Positions 3,852 through 53,706 of a stretch of 64,000 nucleotides of DNA are shown here, piece by piece. The notes under the pieces were generated by a model. It saw only the letters and a list, made by a program, of their open reading frames with translations, ran no database searches and had not been told where the DNA came from. How positions within the stretch are numbered: the stretch's first letter is position 1; each line of letters begins with the position of its first letter. Both the position numbers and the translations under genes were made by a program. The DNA lies in NCBI RefSeq assembly GCF_021502675.1, contig NZ_JAKFHA010000011.1:1-64000 (forward strand), read 5' to 3'. The stretch comes from Yinghuangia soli. GTDB taxonomy: Bacteria > Actinomycetota > Actinomycetes > Streptomycetales > Streptomycetaceae.

Positions 3852-5552
3852 ATGGGACGGCCCGCAACGCTGGCGATCCGCGTCACCGCCGACGCTCGCC
3901 AGGCTGAGCAGGAAGCACAGCGCGCCCAGGGCGTGTTCGGGCGCCTCTCGGACTCGCTGAAGGGGACCGGGGGCGCGCTGCTCGCCGGGGCCGGTCTTGC
4001 CTCGTTCACGGGCTTTCTCGGCAGCGCGGTCAGCAAGGCGGACCAGCTCAACCAGGCCATGGGCGGCATTGATGCCGTCTTCAAGGAGTCCGCCGGGACG
4101 GTCAAGCAGTGGGGCCGCGACGCGGCCCAGTCCGTCGGCCTGAGCGCGACCGCGTACGACCAGACCGCCGCCAAGCTCGGCGCGTCGCTGAAGAACCAGG
4201 GTGTCGCACAGCAGGAGTTGGCCGGGACCACCGACGGCCTGATCAAGCGCGCGGCCGACCTTGCGTCGGTCTTCGGGGGCACCACGCAAGAGGCCGTAGA
4301 GGCCCTAGGAGCCGCGTTCAGGGGTGAGGCCGACCCGGCGGAGCGGTACGGCCTGAACCTGTCTCAGACGGCCGTCAACGCGTACAAGAGCGCCAACGCA
4401 CAGCGGAACCTGACCGACGTCCAAGCGCGGATGGAACTGCTGTTCAAGCAGTCCGCCGACTCGGCCGGGAACTTCGCCAAGGAGTCGAGCACCCTCGAAG
4501 GGCAACAGCAACGGCTGAACGCCCAGTGGGAGAACATGCAAGCTGCCCTTGGGCAGAAGCTGTTGCCCGTGGTGATCGCGGTCGCCACGTGGTTCAACTC
4601 CACGCTTCTGCCGGGGCTCAAGGACACGGCCCAGTGGCTACAGGCCAACGTGGTGCCCGCGTTCGTGCTGCTCGGCGGCATCCTGACCGGGACCATCATC
4701 CCGGCCATCATCAGCACCGCCCAGTGGTTCCGCTCGAACCTGGACATCATCGTCCCGGTGTCGGTCGCCATCGGCGTGATGGCGCTCGCGCTCGGCGGCC
4801 CGTACCTCGCGGCCGTCATCGCGGCCAACGTCCAAGGGCTCATCTGGGTGGCCCGGTTGGGCGCCCAGGCCGCCGCGCAAGGCGTGGTCACGCTCGCCAC
4901 GGGCGCGTGGACGGCGGCCCAATGGCTCCTGAACGTCGCGCTCAACGCGAACCCCATCGGGCTGGTCATCGCGGCCATTGCCGCGCTCGCGGCCGGGATC
5001 TACATCGCGTACCAGAGGAGCGAGACGTTCCGGGCCATCTGCGACAAGGTCTGGTCGGTCATGAAGGCGTGGGGCTCGTTCGTCGGGTCGGTCTTCATCG
5101 GCTACTTCAACCTGTGGAAGGACGCCATCGGCTTCGTGGTCGACAACCTGGGCAAGGTCGTTGACTGGCTCGGCCGGATCAACGTCCCGAACCCCCTGGG
5201 CCTGATCCGCGACGCGTTCGACGCGATCAAGAACAGCATCGGTTGGGCGACGGACAAGGCGAACGACTTCCTCAAGGTGCTGGGCAAGATCCCGGGCGTG
5301 AAGGCCGTGGGCAACTTCATCGGCTCGCTCGTGGGCCGGAGTTCGGCGTCCGCCACCCTGTCCGCGGAAAAGGCCGGCACAAGGGCCGGAGTCTACGAAC
5401 AGCCCTTCGCCACAAGGGATCTGTCCCTCATTCAGCCCATGACGCTGTTCGTCAACATCGACGGCGCCCAGCTTCAGGGGCGCATCTCCCGCACCGTCCG
5501 GGGCGCCATGCTCGCCGACGGCGCCCGCTACGCCGCGAGGGGTTGGGCCTGA
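3852..5552 (+). CDS. Phage tail tape measure protein
   Basis: 566 residues from ATG at 3852 with AGGAGG upstream. It has the usual tape measure layout: a long Ala/Gln-rich helical N-terminal half (ADARQAEQEAQRAQG), several hydrophobic segments at about 265-375 and 400-420, and a compact C-terminal part. At roughly 1.5 angstrom per helical residue, this predicts a short tail of about 85 nm (family rule of thumb). Its stop overlaps the next ATG. Translation may be limited by the hairpin at 3812-3843. Confidence 0.85.
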   Translation: MGRPATLAIRVTADARQAEQEAQRAQGVFGRLSDSLKGTGGALLAGAGLASFTGFLGSAVSKADQLNQAMGGIDAVFKESAGTVKQWGRDAAQSVGLSATAYDQTAAKLGASLKNQGVAQQELAGTTDGLIKRAADLASVFGGTTQEAVEALGAAFRGEADPAERYGLNLSQTAVNAYKSANAQRNLTDVQARMELLFKQSADSAGNFAKESSTLEGQQQRLNAQWENMQAALGQKLLPVVIAVATWFNSTLLPGLKDTAQWLQANVVPAFVLLGGILTGTIIPAIISTAQWFRSNLDIIVPVSVAIGVMALALGGPYLAAVIAANVQGLIWVARLGAQAAAQGVVTLATGAWTAAQWLLNVALNANPIGLVIAAIAALAAGIYIAYQRSETFRAICDKVWSVMKAWGSFVGSVFIGYFNLWKDAIGFVVDNLGKVVDWLGRINVPNPLGLIRDAFDAIKNSIGWATDKANDFLKVLGKIPGVKAVGNFIGSLVGRSSASATLSAEKAGTRAGVYEQPFATRDLSLIQPMTLFVNIDGAQLQGRISRTVRGAMLADGARYAARGWA

Positions 5553-7051
5553 TGGCACTGTCCGCTGAACTGACGTCCGGCGCCTACGCACCCGTTCGGG
5601 TGAGCGTCGAAGGAATCGACGCGGCCGACGGGCCGGTCAAGCTGTTCCTGTGGCGGTCGAGCGAGGTCGACGCCCTGATTGAGCCGCGCGCCGGGTGGCG
5701 CGTGGTGTCCGTGCTGGACCTCGACCAGGGCACCACGACGGCCGAACTCGTCGACGACGGCCGGAACGTCACGCCGGGTATGTACCTGGCCCCGCCCATC
5801 GGCGTGCCCCTGACCTATCAGGCCCAGGTCCAGAAGGACGGGGCGCCGGTCGCCACGGCCGACGTGGTCGGTACGCCCGTCGTGCTCCGGGTGTGGCCCG
5901 ACCCGCGTCTGTCGCTCACCGCCGAGCAGAACGCGGCCGACCGCTCGAAGTTCACGTTCACGATCAAGGGCGGCAAGACCGACTCGGCCACCCTCGACCC
6001 GGGCGACGGCGGGAACCTGATCACCGTCCCCCTGACCGGCGGAGAGGGCCGCGCAACCTACGGGTACACCGACCCCGGGCACCACACCTACCGGGCGTGC
6101 GTCACCGTCCCCGCGCCGGTCCGCTGGACCACCTGGGAGCGCCTGGGCGCCGACATCCCGAACTGGGCCGTCGTGCCCGACTCGTTCGGCCGGTGGGACG
6201 TCGCCACCCTTGACGCCGAGACGGCATGCACCGAGGTCAGCCCCGACGTGGGCAAGGCGACCATCTGGGCCGAGCCCCACCTGAACCCGTGGCCGTACGC
6301 ACAGATCACGGCGTGGATCGGCGACCCCGACGACGTGCAGCGATGGACGATCGAGCGGATCGTCCCGGACTCGCCCCCGGACCTGAACACGGTCATCTTC
6401 GTCACGGAATCCAATCCGGCCGGCCTGTCGCTCGAAGACAACGAAATCCCTTTGGGAGTACCGGTCGTCTACCGGCTGCACGTGCTCTACAAGAACGGGA
6501 CGACGTACGAGATTGATGCCCAGGTCGTCACCCTCGACGGCACGCGCGGATGCTTCCTGACGTCGACAGGCACTGGCCAGACGATGCCGGTTCAGGTCCA
6601 GTCATGGAGTGAGCGAGCCCGCGCCGCGCGGCAAGCCCTGCTTGAGATCCAAGCGCGGGAAGACCCGGTGGTCCTGTCCGACGTCCACACCACACCCTCA
6701 TCAACGCTCGTGTTCCTGACCAGGACACGCGGCGAACTGGTGAACCTCCGGGCCGTGTTGACCGAGACACGGCTGTGCGTCCTTCGCACGCAGCCGAGTT
6801 CGTCCCTGGAAACGGTGTACTTCGCCGTCGGCAACATCACCGAAGGTCGGCTGTACCCCGGCCGGGGCGACCGGTGGGAACGGCTCGTGCAGGTTGAGGC
6901 CCAGGAGGTCGCGCCCGTCCCGGCCACGGCCCGGCTCTTGCATGTGTCCTGGGAAGACGTCGGGGCGCGGTGGGCGACGTGGGCCGACGTCGGGGCCGCC
7001 GTCCCGACGTGGCAGGACCTCGCGGGCTGGAACCCGGAGCGTGCGGCGTGA
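5552..7051 (+). CDS. Minor tail protein, distal tail type
   Basis: 499 residues, with a start that overlaps the tape measure stop. The protein is beta-rich with several Trp-containing repeats; near the C-terminus VSWEDVGARWATW and ADVGAAVPTWQDLAGW form an obvious near-repeat. Position directly after the tape measure gene is where the distal tail protein or first baseplate component is encoded. No enzymatic motif is visible. It ends in a GTGA overlap with the next gene. Confidence 0.6.
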   Translation: MALSAELTSGAYAPVRVSVEGIDAADGPVKLFLWRSSEVDALIEPRAGWRVVSVLDLDQGTTTAELVDDGRNVTPGMYLAPPIGVPLTYQAQVQKDGAPVATADVVGTPVVLRVWPDPRLSLTAEQNAADRSKFTFTIKGGKTDSATLDPGDGGNLITVPLTGGEGRATYGYTDPGHHTYRACVTVPAPVRWTTWERLGADIPNWAVVPDSFGRWDVATLDAETACTEVSPDVGKATIWAEPHLNPWPYAQITAWIGDPDDVQRWTIERIVPDSPPDLNTVIFVTESNPAGLSLEDNEIPLGVPVVYRLHVLYKNGTTYEIDAQVVTLDGTRGCFLTSTGTGQTMPVQVQSWSERARAARQALLEIQAREDPVVLSDVHTTPSSTLVFLTRTRGELVNLRAVLTETRLCVLRTQPSSSLETVYFAVGNITEGRLYPGRGDRWERLVQVEAQEVAPVPATARLLHVSWEDVGARWATWADVGAAVPTWQDLAGWNPERAA

Positions 7052-8166
7052 GGGCCCGTAGCCCGGCCTGGGACTACGTCATCCCGTCGTGCCACGGCAT
7101 CGCGGCTGAGGTCACGTCGTGGCGCTCCGGCGTGCAGCTCGGCGCGGTGCCGCTGCTCGGCGGAGAGATCACCTACGACGACACGGCCCTACTCCGCCGC
7201 CGCCTGACCCTGTCTGTCCCGAACCGGATGCCGGACGGCCGCAGCTTCGACCCGGGAGACGACGCGGCGGCCCCTCTCGCCGTCTACGGCTCCCGTCTGC
7301 GGGTCATGGCCGGGATCGTCCATCCCAACGGCTCTACGGAGCTTCTACGGCATGGCTGGTATCTGGTCACTGAGTGGGAGCGCGACGAAGCGGCGCGCAC
7401 GGTCGAGGTAACCGCCGTGGACCTCGCCCAGCTCCTGGACGACGCGCGCCACCTGGGCACCGAATCGCCCCCGGCCGGGAGCACCTACGCGGCCGAGTTC
7501 ACGCGCCTTGTGGACGGGCTGTTGCCGGTCCGGATCGCGCCCGGACTTCCCGACCGGCGCATTCCGCCGGGCACCGTATGGGACCGGGAAAGGCCCAAGA
7601 ACCTGACGGAACTGTGCCGAGCCTGGGGAGCGCGCTGGTTTATCGACGACGACGGATACGCCACGGCCGCCCCGGCGTATTCCGACGTCACCCCGGCCAC
7701 GCCGACGGACGTCCGGTTCGTTTCCGGCCGCCGGGGGACCGTGGTCAACCGGCGCCGGGCCGCATCCCGGGATCGGCTCTATAACGCGGTGGTCGCCACG
7801 GGAAAGGCGCCCCCGGAATCGAGCAGCTACGCCCCGTCGGCGGTCGCCACGATCGATTCCGGCCCGATTGCTTGGGACGGCCCGTACGGCCGCAAACCGC
7901 GCTTCTACCAATCCGACCTACTGGTGACCAATGACCAGTGCCAGGAGGCGGCCCGGAACATCCTCGCGCGGTCGAGCTCGGTATCCCGTTCCGAGCCGAT
8001 CACGGCCGTTCCCGATCCGGCTCTGGAATTGGGCGACGTCGCCCAGGTGCTCACCGGCGGCCAGTCCTTCACCGGCCGCGTTTCCTCGATCAAGCTCCCG
8101 TTGATCGCGGATGGCCCGATGGAAGTCACCGTGACCAATCAGCCCGCCCAGGAAGAGGAGTCCTGA
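7048..8166 (+). CDS. Minor tail protein, tail-tip hub-like
   Basis: 372 residues from a GTG in a GTGA overlap. The middle part (VEVTAVDLAQLLDDAR, then LTELCRAWGARWFIDDDGY) is characteristic of actinophage minor tail proteins that form the hub at the tail tip (DUF5047-like, named from memory). It follows the distal tail gene, as expected. Host-recognition proteins attach to this hub, consistent with the fibre gene two reading frames downstream. Confidence 0.6.
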   Translation: MRARSPAWDYVIPSCHGIAAEVTSWRSGVQLGAVPLLGGEITYDDTALLRRRLTLSVPNRMPDGRSFDPGDDAAAPLAVYGSRLRVMAGIVHPNGSTELLRHGWYLVTEWERDEAARTVEVTAVDLAQLLDDARHLGTESPPAGSTYAAEFTRLVDGLLPVRIAPGLPDRRIPPGTVWDRERPKNLTELCRAWGARWFIDDDGYATAAPAYSDVTPATPTDVRFVSGRRGTVVNRRRAASRDRLYNAVVATGKAPPESSSYAPSAVATIDSGPIAWDGPYGRKPRFYQSDLLVTNDQCQEAARNILARSSSVSRSEPITAVPDPALELGDVAQVLTGGQSFTGRVSSIKLPLIADGPMEVTVTNQPAQEEES

Positions 8167-34950: not shown

Positions 34951-35140
34951 TGTCGCGTTCCCCTGTCGTTGCTAGTCGTGTGCCCATCGTCTCGCGTGTC
35001 GGACGCGGATGATCGACCGGCTACCCGTTCGGTTACAGTCTTGGTCACGAGATACGACGATCGCACGTCGGCTCGGACAAATGCGGAGCGGCCGCAGGGA
35101 ATCCCCCAGGGGTGACCATCGGCACATCGCACCGCCATAG

Positions 35141-35270
35141 AGCTCATCCAGAGGGGCAGAGGGAACGGCCCGTTGAAGCCCCGGCAACCATCCGATCGGT
35201 ACACCCATGTGCGTCGCACGCGGGGCCGCCGCCGGACTGGTGCCAAATCCGGCCTGCGGGGACCTCCCGC
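35141..35270 (+). ncRNA. SAM riboswitch (S-box / SAM-IV superfamily)
   Basis: The conserved core is complete: CTCATCCAGAGGGGCAGAGG from 35143, GGGAACGGCCCGTTGAAGCC at 35161-35180, then CGGCAACC, and after a 48-nt hairpin region GGTGCCAAATCC (35239-35250). It lies 5' of the threonine-synthase-like gene on the same strand. GCGGG/CCCGC (35256-35260/35266-35270) can form the expression platform just before the AGGAGAGAGG ribosome binding site, suggesting translational control. SAM-I and SAM-IV share this core; actinobacteria often carry SAM-IV. Confidence 0.85.
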
Positions 35271-35297
35271 GGGGAAGATGAGGAGAGAGGCCTCGCC

Positions 35298-36566
35298 ATG
35301 GCTACACCCACGATTTCCCAGACTCTGGTCCCCGGTGCCTTCGGCCCCGCCGTCGCGCTTTCCTGTCGCGAGTGCGGAGAGCGGTACGAGCTCGGCCCCA
35401 AGTTCGCCTGCGAATTCTGCTTCGGCCCCCTCGAGGTGGCGTACGAGTTCGGCACGGTGACCCGCGAGCAGATCGCGGCCGGCCCCAACAACATCTGGCG
35501 TTACGCGCCGCTCCTGCCGGTCCCCGCGGACGTGGCGAGCAAGCCCAACCTCAACCCCGGCTTCACCAAGCTGGTCGAGACCCGCAACCTGGGCCGCGAG
35601 CTGGGCATCAAGAACCTCTACGTCAAGGACGACTCGGGCAACCCGACGCACTCCTTCAAGGACCGCGTGGTGGCCATCGCGGTCGAGGCGGCCCGGAACT
35701 TCGGCTTCACCACGCTGTCCTGCTCCTCGACCGGCAACCTGGCCGGCGCGGTGGGTGCCGCGGCGGCCCGCGCGGGCCTGCGCTCGTGCGTGTTCATCCC
35801 CTCCGACCTGGAGGCCGGCAAGGTCGTCACGGCGGCGGCGTACGGCGGCGAGCTCGTTGCCATCGAGGGCAACTACGACGAGGTCAACCGCTTCTGCTCG
35901 GAGCTCATCGGGGACCCGGCGGGCGAGGGCTGGGGCTTCGTCAACGTCAACCTGCGGCCGTACTACGGCGAGGGCTCCAAGACGCTGGCGTACGAGATCG
36001 CCGAGCAGCTCGGCTGGCGGCTGCCCGAGCAGATCGTGATCCCGATCGCGTCCGGCTCGCAGCTCACCAAGATCGACAAGGGCTTCCGCGAGCTGATCAA
36101 GCTGGGCCTGGTCGAGGACACCCCGTACCGGGTGTTCGGTGCGCAGGCCGAGGGCTGCTCGCCGGTCTCGGCGGCCTGGAAGGCCGGCCACGACGTGATC
36201 CGCCCGGTCAAGCCGGACACCATCGCCAAGTCGCTCGCCATCGGCAACCCGGCCGACGGCCCGTACGTGCTGGACGTGTGCAAGCGCACCGGCGGCGCGG
36301 TCGAGGACGTCGACGACGTGCGCGTGGTCGAGGCCATCAAGCTGCTCGCCCGCACCGAGGGCATCTTCGGGGAGACCGCGGGCGGGGTGACGGTCGGCTG
36401 CCTGAAGAAGCTGGTGGAGACCGGGCAGCTCGACCCGGCGGCGAGCACCGTCGTCCTCAACACCGGGGACGGCCTGAAGACCCTGGACGCGATCGAGGCC
36501 ACCACGGGCGCGACCGCGACCATCCGTCCCTCCCTTGAGTCCTTCCGAGAGGCTGGCCTGGCATGA
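35298..36566 (+). CDS. metM: Threonine-synthase-like PLP enzyme, probable homocysteine synthase (MetM type)
   Basis: 422 residues from ATG with AGGAGAGAGG upstream. It has an N-terminal zinc ribbon (C23, C26, C38, C41) and a fold-type II PLP domain with the Schiff-base Lys K121 in NPTHSFKDRVV and the CSSTGNLAGA phosphate loop. By homology it would be called threonine synthase, acting on O-phosphohomoserine. A SAM riboswitch upstream and a coupled MoaD-like sulfur carrier downstream point instead to a beta-gamma replacement by sulfide from a thiocarboxylate, giving homocysteine for methionine synthesis. I recall such Streptomyces enzymes described as MetM; threonine synthase remains the alternative. 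Confidence 0.7.
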   Translation: MATPTISQTLVPGAFGPAVALSCRECGERYELGPKFACEFCFGPLEVAYEFGTVTREQIAAGPNNIWRYAPLLPVPADVASKPNLNPGFTKLVETRNLGRELGIKNLYVKDDSGNPTHSFKDRVVAIAVEAARNFGFTTLSCSSTGNLAGAVGAAAARAGLRSCVFIPSDLEAGKVVTAAAYGGELVAIEGNYDEVNRFCSELIGDPAGEGWGFVNVNLRPYYGEGSKTLAYEIAEQLGWRLPEQIVIPIASGSQLTKIDKGFRELIKLGLVEDTPYRVFGAQAEGCSPVSAAWKAGHDVIRPVKPDTIAKSLAIGNPADGPYVLDVCKRTGGAVEDVDDVRVVEAIKLLARTEGIFGETAGGVTVGCLKKLVETGQLDPAASTVVLNTGDGLKTLDAIEATTGATATIRPSLESFREAGLA

Positions 36567-37886: not shown

Positions 37887-39696
<1,810 letters not shown>

Positions 39697-39750
39697 TCCG
39701 GACTCCCTCCGGATCGGCGTCCCGGCGCTGACACCAGCAGTACGGCTGAA

Positions 39751-39791
39751 CCGCAGGGCGGCACCCTCCGCAAGGGGGGTGCCGCCCTGCG
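39751..39791 (+). terminator. Hairpin terminator after groEL2
   Basis: CGCAGGGCGGCACCC (39752-39766) pairs perfectly with GGGTGCCGCCCTGCG (39777-39791). The loop is 10 nt. It lies 55 nt after the groEL2 stop. Confidence 0.85.
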
Positions 39792-39970
39792 GCGTTTCCT
39801 CCAGAACGGGGAGAGGGTCGGCGACACCCACTCCTCGACAGAACGGAACCGGAGGGGAGGCCGCGGGCGGTCGGCTGCGGTGGGGATCGGGAGCGTACCT
39901 TGGCGTTTTCCCCTCGTCAGGTGCGGGCGGAAAACGGGTGGCCCGGGTCTCGGGGGCGCTCCTACTGTTG

Positions 39971-40088
39971 GGGACGTGCCTGCGGGAACTACGAGTTCCT
40001 TCAGTGTCTTGGTAGGCAATCGCTCTTCAAAAGCGGCTCTTGGGTTCGAATCCCGCATCGGGACCCGTGACTTGCCCGCAGGCACCCA
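39971..40088 (+). ncRNA. tRNA-like RNA enclosed by an end helix, candidate bacterial Y RNA (YrlA type)
   Basis: The ends pair in an 11-bp helix: GTGCCTGCGGG (39976-39986) with CCCGCAGGCAC (40075-40085). Inside is a tRNA-like fold: a short acceptor-like stem GTTCC/GGGAC (39995-39999/40060-40064); a D-arm TGTC/GGCA with loop TTGGTA (40005-40018); an anticodon-like arm with 5-bp stem and 7-nt loop CTTCAAA, triplet UCA at 40027-40029; and a T-arm with the canonical loop TTCGAAT (40045-40051). The acceptor-like stem is only 5 bp and there is no long variable arm, so a functional tRNA or tRNA-Sec is unlikely. Bacterial Y RNAs pair their ends to bind Ro and carry a tRNA-mimic module, and are often next to the Ro gene, as here (40222). 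Confidence 0.5.
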
Positions 40089-40221
40089 CAAACTGCGCCC
40101 GGGGAACTGTGCGTCCGTTCAGCAGCATGTCGGCCCTCAGGGCAGGCGCGCACCTCACTTCGGATGAGGCAACACCTACGGACCCGCGACCTTCCCCGGG
40201 CGCTCCTTTCGGGAGCCCTCC

Positions 40222-41892
40222 ATGACCATCGACGCCGCCACGGGCACGCTCACGCGCGCCGCGGACCTGACCGCGGCCGCCACCGTCGCCCGCTTCCTCG
40301 ACACCGCCGCCGCGGCCACCGGCCGCGCCACCTTCTACAACTCCGCCGACGAGCAGCGCACCGCCGAACTGGCCGCGCACGCCGGGCTGGCCGCCCTCGA
40401 CCGGGCCCTCTACACCGGTCTCGTCGGCTCGCCCTACATGCTCGACCGCGCCCGGCAGACCGGTGCCCTGCACCTGCTGTCCACGCCGGGCGGCGCACCG
40501 GGCGAGGGGGAGGCGATCCGGCGCATCGTCGGGCAGTTGAGCGTGCCGCGCATGCTCAACCTGTACGGAATGCTCGCCGAGCAGCGGGTCAACAACGCGC
40601 GGGCGCGCAAGCTCGTGCTGCGCACGCTCCTGGGTGCCCCCGCGTTCGGCAAGTGGGCGGTGCGCTACCGGCGCAAGCTCGCGGCCGCACTCCGGCACGC
40701 ATGGGGCGCGCGGACCGCGGGCATCGTACGCGCCGTACTGGTACGCGAGTTGGCGGGCGAGGAGCTGGACGCGAAGGAACTCCGCATCCTGGCCTCCGAG
40801 ATCGACCGGCACGCGCCGGGCCGCGACCGCGCGGTGCTGCACGAGAGCGTGGCGTTCGTGCTCGGCGCCGCAGGACCGTTCCGGCAGCCGCTGCTGCGTG
40901 CGTACGCCGAGGCCCGGACCGACTTGGACGCGGGCCGGACGCTGCCGTACGAGACCCTCGAAGGCCTGCGCGGCCGCTTCCACTCGGCCGAACCGCACGC
41001 CCGCGTCCTGGAACTGACGAAGAGTCGGCTCACCGCGGGGCAGCGGCTCGGCATGCAGGCGCAGGCCGAGAAGGCCGGCGTCGAGGTCGAGGTCGACTTC
41101 GCGCGGTACGACGCGGTCCGGCTGTACGTGTACGCGTACGAGCGGGGGATGAGCGACGACGTCGCCCAGGCCCTCGCCGCGCGGGCCCGCACGGCTGCCG
41201 CTGCGCTCGACCTTGCCGATCGGCGTATCGCGCTGGTGCTCGACGGCTCGGCCTCGATGGCGGGCGCCCGCGAGCAGGCGCTGCGGCCGGTCGCGGCGAC
41301 GCTCGCGCTGCGCGACGTGCTGCGGGAGGCCGCCGCCGAGACCGCCGAAGTGTGGTTCGGGGCACGGCCCGACGCGGACGGCCTGGTGCGTCCGGCCGGG
41401 GCGAGCGGTCCGGCCGAAGCGCTGATCGAGGCGCTGTCCGGGCTGCCGGACCTGGTCGTCGTGGTCTCGGACGGCTACGAGAACGCACCGGCCGGGCGCT
41501 TCGCCGAAGTGCTGGCCGCGGCACGTGACCTGGGCATCACTACTCCGGTCGTCCAGTTCAATCCGGTCGCGGCCGCCGAGGCGAGCGGCGTCCGGGCGCT
41601 GTCGCCGGACGTCCCGGTGGCCGGTGTGCAGCGGGTGGCAGGGCTGGAGTTCGCGTTCTGCCGCATGCTGCTGGACGCCGATCCGGCCGCGGCGCTGCGC
41701 GGGCTGGCGCGCCTGGCCGGGCTGCCGGCCGGGTCGGTACGGAACCTGCTGGGGCCGGACCGCGAGGACGTCGCGGCCGCCGAGAACGCCGAGAACGCTG
41801 AGAACCGCAAGTCCTGCGAGAACGCCGAGAACGCCGAGAACGCCGAGAACTCCAAGAACACCGCGAGCGCCGAGAAGGAGGTGGCGACATGA
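40222..41892 (+). CDS. TROVE/VWA-domain protein, Ro60 (Rsr)-like
   Basis: 556 residues from ATG. A helical N-terminal region (about 15-330) with GRATFYNSADEQRTAELAAH and FGKWAVRYRRKLAAALRHAW resembles the HEAT-like TROVE ring of Ro60/Rsr. A von Willebrand A domain (about 335-520) follows with an intact metal-site motif DGSAS (341-345) and SDGYENAP. This is the two-domain plan of Ro proteins, which bind Y RNAs and misfolded RNAs and act in RNA quality control and stress. A tRNA-like RNA lies just upstream. The last 35 residues are an unusual Ala-Glu-Asn repeat tail. The stop overlaps the next start. The call is by pattern; divergence from known Rsr is considerable. Confidence 0.65.
   Translation: MTIDAATGTLTRAADLTAAATVARFLDTAAAATGRATFYNSADEQRTAELAAHAGLAALDRALYTGLVGSPYMLDRARQTGALHLLSTPGGAPGEGEAIRRIVGQLSVPRMLNLYGMLAEQRVNNARARKLVLRTLLGAPAFGKWAVRYRRKLAAALRHAWGARTAGIVRAVLVRELAGEELDAKELRILASEIDRHAPGRDRAVLHESVAFVLGAAGPFRQPLLRAYAEARTDLDAGRTLPYETLEGLRGRFHSAEPHARVLELTKSRLTAGQRLGMQAQAEKAGVEVEVDFARYDAVRLYVYAYERGMSDDVAQALAARARTAAAALDLADRRIALVLDGSASMAGAREQALRPVAATLALRDVLREAAAETAEVWFGARPDADGLVRPAGASGPAEALIEALSGLPDLVVVVSDGYENAPAGRFAEVLAAARDLGITTPVVQFNPVAAAEASGVRALSPDVPVAGVQRVAGLEFAFCRMLLDADPAAALRGLARLAGLPAGSVRNLLGPDREDVAAAENAENAENRKSCENAENAENAENSKNTASAEKEVAT
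41782..41850 (+). repeat. 9-bp coding repeats (Ala-Glu-Asn) in the Ro-like gene
   Basis: GAGAACGCC-type nonamers recur seven times with one interruption, encoding AENAENAEN, RKSC, then ENAENAENAEN. The tract forms the C-terminal tail of the VWA protein and is unlike the rest of the gene in composition. It is in frame and length-variable in principle. Confidence 0.8.
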
Positions 41893-42914
41893 GGAACCCG
41901 CTGCGGAAGCTGAAGCGCAGTGCGGCCGAGCAGGCCACGGTCGGCGAGCTGCTGTCCGGCACGACCACCGGCCGCGTGCAGAGCGCCGGCCGGATGCAGG
42001 TCCTGCCGCTGCTTGCCGGCGACGCGCCGACCACCAACCTCGGCGACCCGGCCGCGCTCGGGATCTCCACCGGCGACTACGGGACCCTGAAGTTCCGCAA
42101 CGACGGTCCCGACCACGTCCTGGTGCCGAGCCACCTCGCTGTCATGGTGTCGCAGAAGGCGCAGGACCACGCGATGCCGCGCGCCACGTTGGTGGGCCCC
42201 GGCGCCGACCTGCCGTACAACGCCGCGATGTGCATCCAGCAGTCGCAAGGCGGGCTCATCTCGGATGGGCGGCACCGCCTCGCGGTGCTGCCGCCGTCGG
42301 TCCGCGAGGCCGCGTCCGCGATGCCCGCGAAGCCGGGGTACGACCGGCTGTGGCCGGCCGTCGCGCGGTTCAAGTCCTCGGCCGGCCTTCCCGGGTCCGC
42401 GGACCTGGTCCGGTTCATGAAGCACTTCGCCGACGAACTCGACCAGTTCGTGGCCGAGTTCGAGAACGTCGAGGACCAGATCGGGGCCGTCGTGCTGATG
42501 GATGGGGAGGTCCTCGGTGTCGAGCGCGCTCCTTCGCACGCGTACTGGAACACGATGTGGGAGCCGCTGATCCGGTTCTGCTACGGCGCGGAAGCGGTAC
42601 GCCGCGAAGCGGCGGGAGTCCCGGCAAGCCCGGTCACCCGGGCACCGCTCGCGACTCCCGCGGCGGGCGGAGACGGGGCCGACCCGTTCTCGGCCCTTGC
42701 GGCCGCGCTGCGCGCGGCGGACACGGCGGAGCAGGGCCTGGTCGAGACCGCCACGTCCGAAGCCGCCGCCCAGTCCGTGGTCGTCGGCGTCGACGAGTCG
42801 GCCGCCGACCTCGCGGTCGGCACCGTCATCGGGGAACGCCTGGTCGGGGCGTACGCCCTCGCCGGGGGCACCCCGGTGTACGCGTCGCTCACGGCGCGCA
42901 ACACCTTGGGCTGA
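41889..42914 (+). CDS. ARPP-like domain protein coupled to the Ro-like gene
   Basis: 341 residues, with ATG overlapping the previous stop (ATGA) and GGAGGTGG upstream. A beta-rich first half (GRMQVLPLLAGDAPTTNLGD, YGTLKFRNDGPDHVLVPSHL) and a helical/beta second part (FVAEFENVEDQIGAVVLMDG, WNTMWEPLIRFCYG) look like the ARPP-type domain, known in bacteria but without a firm biochemical function; the name is from memory. The C-terminal 90 residues are Ala-rich and variable. Tight coupling implies it works with the Ro-like protein, perhaps in the same RNA-related process. Confidence 0.55.
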   Translation: MRNPLRKLKRSAAEQATVGELLSGTTTGRVQSAGRMQVLPLLAGDAPTTNLGDPAALGISTGDYGTLKFRNDGPDHVLVPSHLAVMVSQKAQDHAMPRATLVGPGADLPYNAAMCIQQSQGGLISDGRHRLAVLPPSVREAASAMPAKPGYDRLWPAVARFKSSAGLPGSADLVRFMKHFADELDQFVAEFENVEDQIGAVVLMDGEVLGVERAPSHAYWNTMWEPLIRFCYGAEAVRREAAGVPASPVTRAPLATPAAGGDGADPFSALAAALRAADTAEQGLVETATSEAAAQSVVVGVDESAADLAVGTVIGERLVGAYALAGGTPVYASLTARNTLG

Positions 42915-51483: not shown

Positions 51484-53706
51484 TCAGGCCTCTGGTGCGG
51501 CCAGTTCGTCCGGCAGCGGCCAGCTGTGGACGACCAGCAGCCCGGAGACCGCACGGGTCAGCACCACGTACAGGCGCCGCAGCCCCTGGGGTTCGGCCTC
51601 GACGATCTCGGCCGGTTCGGCGACCGCGATGTGGTCGAACTCCAGGCCCTTCGCCAGCGTCGCCGGGACCAGGTTGAGCCGGACCTCCTCCGGGACGTCG
51701 CTCTCGGTGCCCAGTTGCCGGTACGCGAGACCCGCGGCGCCGAGTGCCGCGGCCAGGGCCGGGATCCGGGCGTCCGCGGCGATGAGGCCGATCGAGCCTT
51801 CCTCGGCGAGCAGCCCGCGGACGCCGTCCGCAAGGGCGTCGTCCACAGCCTGTGGACCGACCTCGCGCAGCACCAGCGATCCCGGGGCCTCGCGTACCGA
51901 GCTCGCCGGGGCCAGCCCCGGAGCGATGAACGGCAGCAGGCGGCTGGCGAAGTCGAGGATCTCGCGCGGCACCCGGAAGCCTTGGGTGAGCTCCTCGAAG
52001 CGGGCGTCGGCGCGCCCGAGATGCCGCAGCGTCGCGGCCCAGTCCTCCGCGGCCCACGGCGTGGTGCCCTGGGCGATGTCGCCGAGGACCGTCGCCGAAC
52101 CGGTCGTACAGCGGCGGCCGACCGCGCGGCACTGCATCGCGGACAGGTCCTGCGCCTCGTCGACCACTACGTGGCCGAGGCTGCCGGTACGCGCGACCAG
52201 GTCGGCGGCTTCGTCCACAAGCACCGCGTCGGCCGCCGACCACTTGGCAGAGCCGACGCCGCGGGCCGGCTTCACCCAGCGGATCACGGCCTGCTCCTCT
52301 TCGCTGAGCACGCCGTCCGCGCAGGCCGCCAGGAACTCCGCGTCGGACAGCAGCCGCAGGACCAGCTTCGCGGGGTCGACGGCCGGCCAGACGCTATTGA
52401 CCAGGTCGCGCACCGGGCGGGACCGGGCCACCGCGTCCTGCACGCGGTCGTCGGGGGACTCGCCCGCGCGCTCCATCTGCACGAGCACCGCGTGCGCGAG
52501 GCGCTGGTGGAGCATGTCGCGGGCGGCGCCGTAACGCACGTCGCGCCCGCGCAGCCCGGCGACGACCTCCTCGACCTCGTACGCCGGGACCCGCCAGCGC
52601 CGCGAGCCGCGCACCACGAGCAGCGACTCCTCGGGGGTGCGGACGCCGGACCACACCGCGCGGCGCAGCACCTCGGCCATCCGCGCATCGCCCTTGAGCC
52701 GGCCCGCCTCGGGGGTGTCGACGGCCTTCACCGGCACGTGCGCGACGAGGTCCTCGACGGTGGTCTGCCCGACCTCGACCTCGCCGAGCGCGGGCAGCAC
52801 CTGCTGGATGTAGTCGAGGAACGAGCGGTTCGGGCCGACCACCAGGGTGCCGCTGCGCTGCAGCCGCTCGCGGTGCGCGTACAGCAGCCATGCGACGCGG
52901 TGCAGGCCCACGGCGGTCTTCCCGGTGCCGGGGGCACCTTGCACGCACACCGTCTGGCCGAGGTCGGCGCGCACGATCTCGTCCTGCTCGGGCTGGATGG
53001 TGGCCACGATGTCGCGCATCGGGCCGACGCGGGGCCGCTCGATCTCGGCGGCCAGGATCGCGCTCTTGCCCTCTTCCTCGCCCTGGTCGAGCAGGTGCTC
53101 GTCCTCGAACGCGGTGAGGCTGCCGCCGGTCCAGCCGAACCGCCGGCGCAGTTCGACGCCGAGCGGCTCCTTGCGGGTGGCCCGGTAGAACGACCGGGCC
53201 ACAGGCGCGCGCCAGTCGACGACCATGGGGTCACCCGCGTGGTCGTGCACGTGGCGGCGGCCGATCCAGAAGCGCTCCAGCGGCCGGGACGGGTCCGCGG
53301 CGACTTCGAGCGGGGCGGTCCCGGTGGACACCTCCGGGGCGTCCGCGAACCGGCCGTCGATGCGGCCGAAGAAGAGCGGGGCATCTGCCAGGTCGGCGAG
53401 CGACGCGATACGGCCCTCGATGAGGTGCCGGACCTGCTTGTTGGAGACCTCGTTGCCGCCGACATCGGTGAGGTCGAGCGCCTGGGTCTCCTCGCGCATG
53501 CGGCGCAGGCAGGCGCGGGACGCGGCGAGATGGTCGCGCTCGGCGGCGAGGGCGGCCCCGGGGTCGGCGGCCGGGTCGACGGCGGGACCGGTACGGGCAT
53601 CCGGGCGCGAGTCGGCCCGCGTATCGCGGGAGGGTTCGGGAGCGGGCTCGGTGGACGGGTCTGCGGTGTACGCGGACAAGATCGGCTCCGAATGCGGTGA
53701 CGGCAT
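51484..53706 (-). CDS. helD: HelD-like RNA polymerase-associated helicase/ATPase
   Basis: 740 residues from the ATG at 53706; an upstream ATG at 53895 is possible but poorly supported. This is a superfamily 1 ATPase with Walker A GAPGTGKT (K263), VVVDEAQDLS and a UvrD-like C-terminal domain (LAKGLEFDHIAVAEP, LRRLYVVLTRA). The coiled N-terminal region after residue 50 (LAAERDHLAASRACLRRMRE) is the HelD arm that enters RNA polymerase. HelD clears stalled polymerase. A related Streptomyces protein, HelR, gives rifamycin tolerance, but no rifamycin-associated element is seen here. The first 45 residues are low complexity. Confidence 0.85.
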   Translation of the reverse strand: MPSPHSEPILSAYTADPSTEPAPEPSRDTRADSRPDARTGPAVDPAADPGAALAAERDHLAASRACLRRMREETQALDLTDVGGNEVSNKQVRHLIEGRIASLADLADAPLFFGRIDGRFADAPEVSTGTAPLEVAADPSRPLERFWIGRRHVHDHAGDPMVVDWRAPVARSFYRATRKEPLGVELRRRFGWTGGSLTAFEDEHLLDQGEEEGKSAILAAEIERPRVGPMRDIVATIQPEQDEIVRADLGQTVCVQGAPGTGKTAVGLHRVAWLLYAHRERLQRSGTLVVGPNRSFLDYIQQVLPALGEVEVGQTTVEDLVAHVPVKAVDTPEAGRLKGDARMAEVLRRAVWSGVRTPEESLLVVRGSRRWRVPAYEVEEVVAGLRGRDVRYGAARDMLHQRLAHAVLVQMERAGESPDDRVQDAVARSRPVRDLVNSVWPAVDPAKLVLRLLSDAEFLAACADGVLSEEEQAVIRWVKPARGVGSAKWSAADAVLVDEAADLVARTGSLGHVVVDEAQDLSAMQCRAVGRRCTTGSATVLGDIAQGTTPWAAEDWAATLRHLGRADARFEELTQGFRVPREILDFASRLLPFIAPGLAPASSVREAPGSLVLREVGPQAVDDALADGVRGLLAEEGSIGLIAADARIPALAAALGAAGLAYRQLGTESDVPEEVRLNLVPATLAKGLEFDHIAVAEPAEIVEAEPQGLRRLYVVLTRAVSGLLVVHSWPLPDELAAPEA

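Follow-up and report, generated by a model that had tools for sequence, protein, structure and literature searches.

A locus of Yinghuangia soli probably represents a phage-associated class of Ro ribonucleoprotein (RNP) that is distinct from Rsr/YrlA and carries unpermuted tRNA mimics. The locus lies on a 64-kb window (hereafter, the whole stretch of DNA analyzed: positions 1 to 64,000 of contig NZ_JAKFHA010000011.1) of a 9.7-Mb host genome and follows a groEL2-like gene on the + strand. It comprises, in this order and on the same strand, two structured RNA elements, RNA1 (39976..40085) and RNA2 (40095..40203); gene1 (40222..41892), encoding a 556-residue protein with a predicted Ro fold; and gene2 (41889..42914), encoding a 341-residue protein of the ARPP-1 family. 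This view is built on the conservation and covariation of RNA1, its strict co-occurrence with gene1, the constancy of the gene pair, and the recurrence of this pair in viral genomes, next to tRNA-like elements that have paired ends of a similar kind.

Two RNA elements and a coupled gene pair

The minimum free energy (MFE) structure of RNA1 (-45.9 kcal/mol, z -2.89; none of 200 shuffled sequences was equally stable) consists of a closing helix of 11 base pairs (bp), an internal loop, inner helices of 4 and 5 bp, and three hairpins resembling the D-, anticodon-, and T-arms of a tRNA. The outer stem, H1, pairs positions 39976..39986 with 40075..40085, whereas the inner, acceptor-like stem, H2, pairs 39995..39999 with 40060-40064; both stems are supported by the MFE fold and by covariation. 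Between their 5′ strands lies the internal loop sequence AACT (39987..39990), which is invariant in the five genomes considered below. The D-arm-like hairpin (40005..40018) has the loop TGGT, the anticodon-arm-like hairpin (40020..40036) the loop CTTCAAA, and the T-arm-like hairpin (40041..40055) the loop TTCGAAT, with GGGTTCRAATCCC conserved in all five genomes. When a covariance model of RNA1 was run over 394 genomes of the family, RNA1 was recovered in five, each time beside an orthologue of gene1; the gene1 orthologues (60-69% identity), three from the genus of Yinghuangia and two from that of Embleya scabrispora, occupy exactly the same 5 of 394 genomes. In a sequence-only alignment of the five RNAs, 98.3% of the cells are paired, and changes on both sides were found in 6 of 24 pairs, a covariation score reached by none of 500 shuffles; pairing is destroyed once the partners are slid against each other. 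For the 11-bp helix, the corresponding figures are 100% of the cells and 4 of 11 pairs. The GG of the D-loop and the T-loop are invariant across the five genomes, and the anticodon-like arm varies in both sequence and length. Thus, the element that the first-pass annotation had placed at 39971-40088 is real: its 11-bp helix and the three tRNA-like hairpins are all present in the MFE structure, and the helices, for which covariation had been proposed as a check, do covary in the genomes that carry gene1.

Despite this resemblance, RNA1 cannot work as a tRNA because its acceptor-like stem has only 5 bp and is continued by the basal helices. Consistently, ARAGORN found no tRNA genes in the window, leaving RNA1 uncalled, and at the Rfam gathering score neither RNA1 nor any other part of the window was listed as a tRNA.

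RNA2, which the first-pass annotation overlooked, carries the same two-stem base as RNA1 (GGGGAACTG ... CCTTCCCC), here surrounding a core that is not tRNA-like. The motif GGGAACTnCG...ACCCGnGACyT.CCC is present twice in the aligned upstream regions, and RNA2 is matched by the covariance model of RNA1 with 39.4 bits (E 1.4e-5). Its MFE z-score is -4.20, and its stems are retained in all five genomes. We refer to the putative shared module as the handle; it consists of an outer and an inner stem separated by an asymmetric internal loop whose 5′ strand starts with (R)AC[T/G].

The gene1 protein has no match among NCBIfam families or PDB sequences and does not match Pfam TROVE (PF05731) up to E 10; therefore, the label "TROVE" rests on its predicted fold. 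An AlphaFold2 model derived from nine sequences (predicted local distance difference test score, pLDDT, 81.9; predicted template modelling score, pTM, 0.78) was compared with known structures in two ways. In the Foldseek search, the first six rows are Ro60/Rsr proteins (best E 7.6e-6), with the placement of domains differing or uncertain given the template modelling (TM) scores of 0.33-0.45 and the high root-mean-square deviation. In the VIA comparison, the first ten rows are Ro/TROVE proteins, with Z-scores of 12.6-16.8 over 390-409 residues at 11-15% identity, the best being 2I91 (Z 16.8 over 404 residues); the next row is unrelated and matches only the von Willebrand factor A (vWA) part (Z 10.5). 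By its model, then, the gene1 product is a Ro-fold protein, in which a vWA domain closes a ring of helical repeats. Residues D341, S343, and S345, which we take to be of the metal ion-dependent adhesion site (MIDAS) type, are invariant in the alignment of nine relatives. Neither gene1 nor gene2, nor two phage relatives, matched any family of known anti-phage defence systems in PADLOC (2023 library, E 0.01), and a PHROGs search gave no match.

The gene2 product matches ARPP-1 (PF20208) with E 9.2e-26 and 91.3 bits (cut-off 27). Its model is confident (pLDDT 90.4) and matches no PDB structure (Foldseek best E 0.22; VIA best Z 3.7); therefore, we assign it neither a fold nor a chemistry. Six residues, Q92, H94, C115, Q120, E192, and E212 in the numbering of the first aligned row, are invariant in 14 sequences. 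ARPP-1 adjoins gene1 in all four orthologue loci, directly follows it in all six of the more distant cell loci tested first, adjoins the gene1 homologue in 10/10 loci of another set, and follows gene1 in 25 of 29 Actinomadura-type loci, the four without it (L088, L092, L093, and L101) being short contigs. To judge from these arrangements, ARPP-1 appears too constant a partner of gene1 to be incidental. The gene order and the 556- and 341-residue frames of the first-pass annotation are borne out by the list of open reading frames (ORFs), and its "ARPP-like" gene is ARPP-1 by Pfam; its description of gene1 as a TROVE/VWA (Ro60-like) gene agrees with the predicted fold and finds no counterpart in the Pfam search.

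Relatives of the locus in cells and phages

A genome scan with the single gene1 protein as a query returned no match; relatives were obtained with an alignment-based scan. Among named genomes, distant orthologues were found in Minicystis (48% identity), a Kapaibacterium bin (44%), a contig binned as Pacearchaeota (32%), and Microscilla (28%), along with 29 shorter matches, mostly from Actinomadura. In a sample of the phylum searched at E 1e-40, only the genome of Y. soli itself was matched (1/396). A tree was built with a short search from 44 of 66 rows, leaving out 22 Actinomadura-type rows; it carries Shimodaira-Hasegawa-like approximate likelihood ratio test (SH-aLRT) support only and a long-branch warning. 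In this tree, the gene1 protein of the window falls into a group of 22 rows (support 99) with the phage, Minicystis, Kapaibacterium, and Pacearchaeota proteins. The 39 rows accompanied by ARPP-1 lie on one side of a branch (support 100) and a paralogue branch on the other. Loci of the paralogue branch encode a divergent, ARPP-2-like homologue of ARPP in 19 of 19 cases, assigned to ARPP-2 by Pfam in the one tested. Y. soli itself has such a gene1 paralogue (37%; L031, G000:C1:353627-354403) next to an ARPP-2-like gene, and no RNA was found for it. Relatives from the paralogue branch also reside on Nostoc plasmids (L126, L127), where XisH/XisI adjoin in both conjugative plasmids opened, and the Alkaliphilus plasmid pB6464 (L117) carries a Ro-like gene and DUF6569 (ARPP-1), with a TerD-family gene upstream and no tRNA call.

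Several of the cellular loci are rich in tRNA-like sequences. The Minicystis gene1 locus contains 36 ARAGORN calls (one labelled tmRNA), and in Minicystis rosea (L083) this very large, mostly handle-free array flanks the Ro-like/ARPP-1 pair on both sides (1-2900 and 5500-7485). Two T-arms lie upstream of gene1 in Kapaibacterium, one in the Pacearchaeota contig, and a series of tRNAs in Microscilla. Three finders were tried for handles, and the score bonuses of the last one were picked after inspection of earlier matches; its figures are therefore judged only against reverse strands and equally scored shuffles. Handles were located by finder at L083 2431-2557, L083 2722-2860, and L084 2603-2712. 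The second of these sites resembles, by eye, a handled RNA with permuted arms, in the order anticodon, T, acceptor hairpin, and D. The Microscilla handles were read by eye and listed only by the looser first finder; there (L086, 330-2225), ordinary tRNAs alternate, again by eye, with two classes of repeated AAAAGAACTG...TATCTTTT elements, one having a T-arm and the other lacking it.

Searches of phages with tblastn using gene1 returned one record, a 462-kb metagenomic phage (35.5% identity over 82%), as did the other tblastn queries. Scans of viral contigs were more productive, with 8 loci found by the gene1 alignment and 25 by ARPP-1 alone. A Ro-like gene lies upstream of ARPP-1 in all 25 viral loci (22 distinct), separated by at most ~280 nucleotides (nt). 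In one of them (L139), two frames of 440 and 81 codons at 4383-5995 make up the Ro-like gene, the result of either a frameshift or an assembly error. Eighteen of the 22 distinct loci contain tRNA calls, 64 on the strand of the genes and none on the opposite one, which is modest evidence when taken alone because phage genes often run one way; the other four have one to three T-arm motifs within 2 kb upstream on the strand of the genes and none on the opposite strand.

Pairing between the flanks of these tRNAs was assessed with a motif-free test (at least 8 pairs between 45-nt flanks, p <=0.05 against shuffled flanks). In viral loci, 25 of 65 distinct calls have paired flanks, compared to 4 of 43 in cell loci and 0 of 13 ordinary host tRNAs, a small and GC-rich control; chance pairing between neighbouring tRNAs accounts for several of the 25. 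The motif RAC occurs in the 5′ internal loop of 15 of these 25 tRNAs versus 4 of the 40 others (p 2.6e-5). When the loop is required together with p <=0.02, with one tRNA of intermediate p (0.02 to 0.05) excluded from both groups, 22 of 108 array tRNA calls are handled, with 2.2 expected by chance. Across 24 handled RNAs, RNA1 of the window included, changes on both sides were found in 12 of 14 predicted pairs of the D-, anticodon-, and T-arms. Alignment A10 includes two rows (L142 and L138) added by hand although they fail the definition of handled tRNAs; a five-row phage alignment (A11), misaligned on the 3′ side, was not used. In 23 viral loci, the refined handle finder detected 29 sites on the forward strand, one on the reverse strand, and 0.67 in shuffled sequence; since one of these loci (L140) duplicates another (L116), this amounts to 27 forward sites in 15 of 22 distinct loci. 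The five matches of the RNA1 model in phages all lie on the strand of the genes.

Several observations weigh against a common RNP class. Most of the array tRNA calls, 85 of 108, are unhandled, and the phage matches of the RNA1 model are insignificant singly (E 0.067 to 0.56). Covariation of RNA2 is weak, with both-side changes in 2 of 22 pairs, a level reached by 6 of 500 shuffles, because its stems vary little. One cellular locus with T-arms (L085) yielded no handle with the finder, and the Actinomadura-type relatives have ARPP-1 and no T-arm signal beyond stray motifs. Within the window, the refined finder lists three forward and four reverse sites, among which a chance site at 53018 outscores RNA1, and in other GC-rich cellular DNA its forward/reverse counts are 2/2 for paralogue loci, 1/1 for canonical TROVE loci, 7/4 for YrlA loci, and 9/10 for Actinomadura-type loci. 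Given that the finder shows no contrast between strands in GC-rich DNA, the handle of the window rests on conservation.

Alternative explanations and neighbouring features

The alternative that survives best, unlikely as we consider it, is that the handled tRNAs are precursors: the handle would park real tRNAs on the ring, from which processing would free working tRNAs when those of the host are cut. The handled tRNAs of phages and cells indeed form whole cloverleaves, CCA is encoded near the 3′ end in 10 of 22 of them (36 of 85 among the unhandled), and ordinary long-armed Leu and Ser tRNAs are found in the same arrays. However, a long variable arm is required in bacterial tRNAs for Ser, Leu, and Tyr, and calls labelled with these amino acids reach 82 nt in none of six handled cases, as opposed to 9 of 14 unhandled ones (p 0.012). 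Irregular anticodons are also commoner among handled tRNAs (9/22 versus 8/85, p 0.0012), and neither RNA of the window suits the role of a precursor, RNA1 lacking a full acceptor stem and RNA2 carrying no tRNA at all. Judging by these sequence features, the handled tRNAs look like mimics.

It is quite unlikely, in our estimation, that RNA1 and RNA2 serve chiefly as cis-acting leaders by which the ring protein regulates the mRNA that encodes it, although such regulation would be compatible with the RNP reading. RNA2 ends 18 nt before the gene1 start codon, and when RNA2 is unfolded, its 3′ strand alone may pair with the ribosome-binding region GGGAG (40198-40216; hairpin within 40190-40230, -12.4 kcal/mol), a possible switch, according to the folding model, on gene1 translation. 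Conversely, phage loci contain several such elements, some of them downstream of the gene pair, and RNA1 has a -10-like element of its own: the hexamer TACTGT (39963..39968, + strand) lies 7 nt 5′ of the RNA1 stem, and a TAnnnT hexamer occurs a few bases 5′ of RNA1 in 5/5 genomes, with no conserved -35 element, all read by eye and without a statistic.

We regard it as very unlikely that the locus holds nothing new, with RNA1 being a Y RNA of the usual YrlA type and gene1 a usual rsr; the first-pass annotation, too, had likened the element to YrlA. The general plan is alike: YrlA, as outlined in the description given in PMC8394870, has a basal stem formed by the ends of the RNA and tRNA-like D and T modules and is encoded beside a Ro-type gene, all of which holds for RNA1. 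However, the YrlA model RF02553 (gathering score 69 bits) is absent among the Rfam matches of RNA1 up to E 10. Furthermore, Y. soli has a canonical rsr on another contig (C27), which matches Pfam TROVE with E 3.3e-15, in contrast to gene1, and is directly preceded by an RNA that, judging from its fold and by reading, has a T-arm, an acceptor-like hairpin, and a D-arm, in this sequence, between paired ends (Rfam 32.5 bits, below the cut-off). A second YrlA-like RNA is located on contig C18, and the order T, acceptor hairpin, and D was read in other relatives as well. In RNA1, the order is the natural one, D, anticodon, and T, and the core is closed at the acceptor side, which makes it a construction different from the YrlA-like RNAs; it also has an anticodon-like arm and a different internal-loop sequence. 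The raw tally of RF02553 matches means little, because matches were also obtained in 7 of 14 control genomes: among 61 relatives, 48 have matches at E 1e-3 and none has one that exceeds the cut-off, and by ARAGORN a considerable share of the 20 loci examined consists of plain tRNA tandems. As for the protein, its predicted fold resembles those of human Ro60, Deinococcus radiodurans Rsr (2NVO), and Ro60 of the Thermus phage phiLo (9L5Y) over ~400 residues, whereas it differs from them in sequence, in the missing Pfam TROVE match, and in its pairing with ARPP-1 in the loci tested. The gene1 profile did not match any of 12 canonical TROVE loci at E 1e-3, and these are therefore absent from the tree. 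What stands from the earlier reading is an RNA with paired ends and a tRNA-like core, conserved and covarying, beside a gene with a predicted Ro60 fold; the assignment to YrlA does not. This is a Ro/Y RNA variant distinct from YrlA, with a wider reach than first seen.

Finally, a decayed selenocysteine tRNA caught by chance in a stem is hardly credible: the best tRNA-class match of RNA1, obtained below threshold in the Rfam search that had been proposed as a check, is tRNA-Sec (24.2 bits, gathering 47), and the anticodon-like triplet is UCA, but this loop is not conserved (by reading, GCA in G002 and CCG in G020), the stems of RNA1 covary, and the handle recurs in RNA2, where it bears no tRNA.

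The groEL2-like gene upstream of RNA1 (38071..39696, + strand), a neighbour outside the system, is an ORF of 541 codons matching Pfam Cpn60_TCP1 (E 3.7e-75). A strong GC-rich hairpin 3′ of it (39741-39813), with sub-threshold matches to several Rfam hairpin families, is probably its terminator. The only match listed for the window at the Rfam gathering score is an S-adenosylmethionine (SAM) riboswitch (RF00162, 35141-35284, + strand, 76.5 bits), located shortly before an ORF (frame 35112-36566) that presumably encodes a protein resembling threonine synthase.

A possible place in the phage-host contest over tRNA

In the explanation we favour, the gene1 product would form a Ro-like ring, as its model suggests, and this ring would most likely hold RNA1 and RNA2 by the handle. 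RNA1 would thereby present a tRNA-shaped load in natural order, with an elbow composed of the D-loop GG and the T-loop TTCRAAT and with an anticodon-like arm. As RNA1 is unfit as a tRNA, its most likely target is a factor acting on tRNA. By analogy with YrlA, which is modified by DusA and TruB and reported in an Rsr-YrlA-PNPase complex (both in the part of PMC8394870 concerned with YrlA), RNA1 may recruit a tRNA-acting partner to the ring, much as PNPase is brought to Rsr by YrlA, or occupy that partner as a decoy. ARPP-1 would be the constant companion of the ring and might act as an enzyme on the RNA held there. That the anticodon-like arm of RNA1 is kept yet free to vary fits bait or competition better than translation.

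Related arrangements have been described. The Salmonella rsr-yrlBA-rtcBA RNA repair operon likewise combines a Ro-type gene with two Y-type RNAs, and the passage of PMC7790460 on YrlA raises competitive inhibition of an anticodon nuclease as a possibility; here, the partner is ARPP-1, and no rtc gene was seen by eye among the ORFs of the window beside the pair. Archaeal tRNA clusters contain a TROVE-domain gene in 20 of 29 cases, according to the passage of PMC6333295 on these clusters, which mentions neither handles nor tRNA mimics nor ARPP-1. ROT/TROVE proteins are reported from a small subset of jumbo phages, their cellular counterparts having a tRNA-like partner (PMC7824862), and a Ro60-related protein is reported from a Vibrio jumbo phage (PMC7765460); ARPP and RNA elements are not described in the passages of these two papers devoted to the proteins. 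We found no paper linking TROVE with ARPP-1/DUF6569 or describing handled tRNAs, which, with few subscription journals covered, is weak evidence of absence.

That large phages have the same gene pair, together with handled tRNA mimics, points to a role in the phage-host conflict over tRNA, and the Yinghuangia/Embleya locus may plausibly have come from a phage. More tentatively, and as a possibility rather than an expectation, phage-carried Ro RNPs may bear handle-mounted copies of tRNAs with drifting anticodons as bait, so that the ring and ARPP-1 would protect the tRNA pool of the phage or the cell by luring, sensing, or disarming enzymes that cut or modify tRNA; Yinghuangia and Embleya would then keep, next to groEL2, a slimmed version with one tRNA bait and one non-tRNA RNA. 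The general function of Y RNAs and Ro proteins has long been unclear. If the proposal is true, the unpermuted tRNA load, the free anticodon-like arm, ARPP-1, and the tRNA arrays of large phages would link Ro RNPs with the competition between phage and host for tRNA, and part of the odd tRNA genes in phage arrays, those with the wrong anticodon or of the wrong class, would be explained as mimics.

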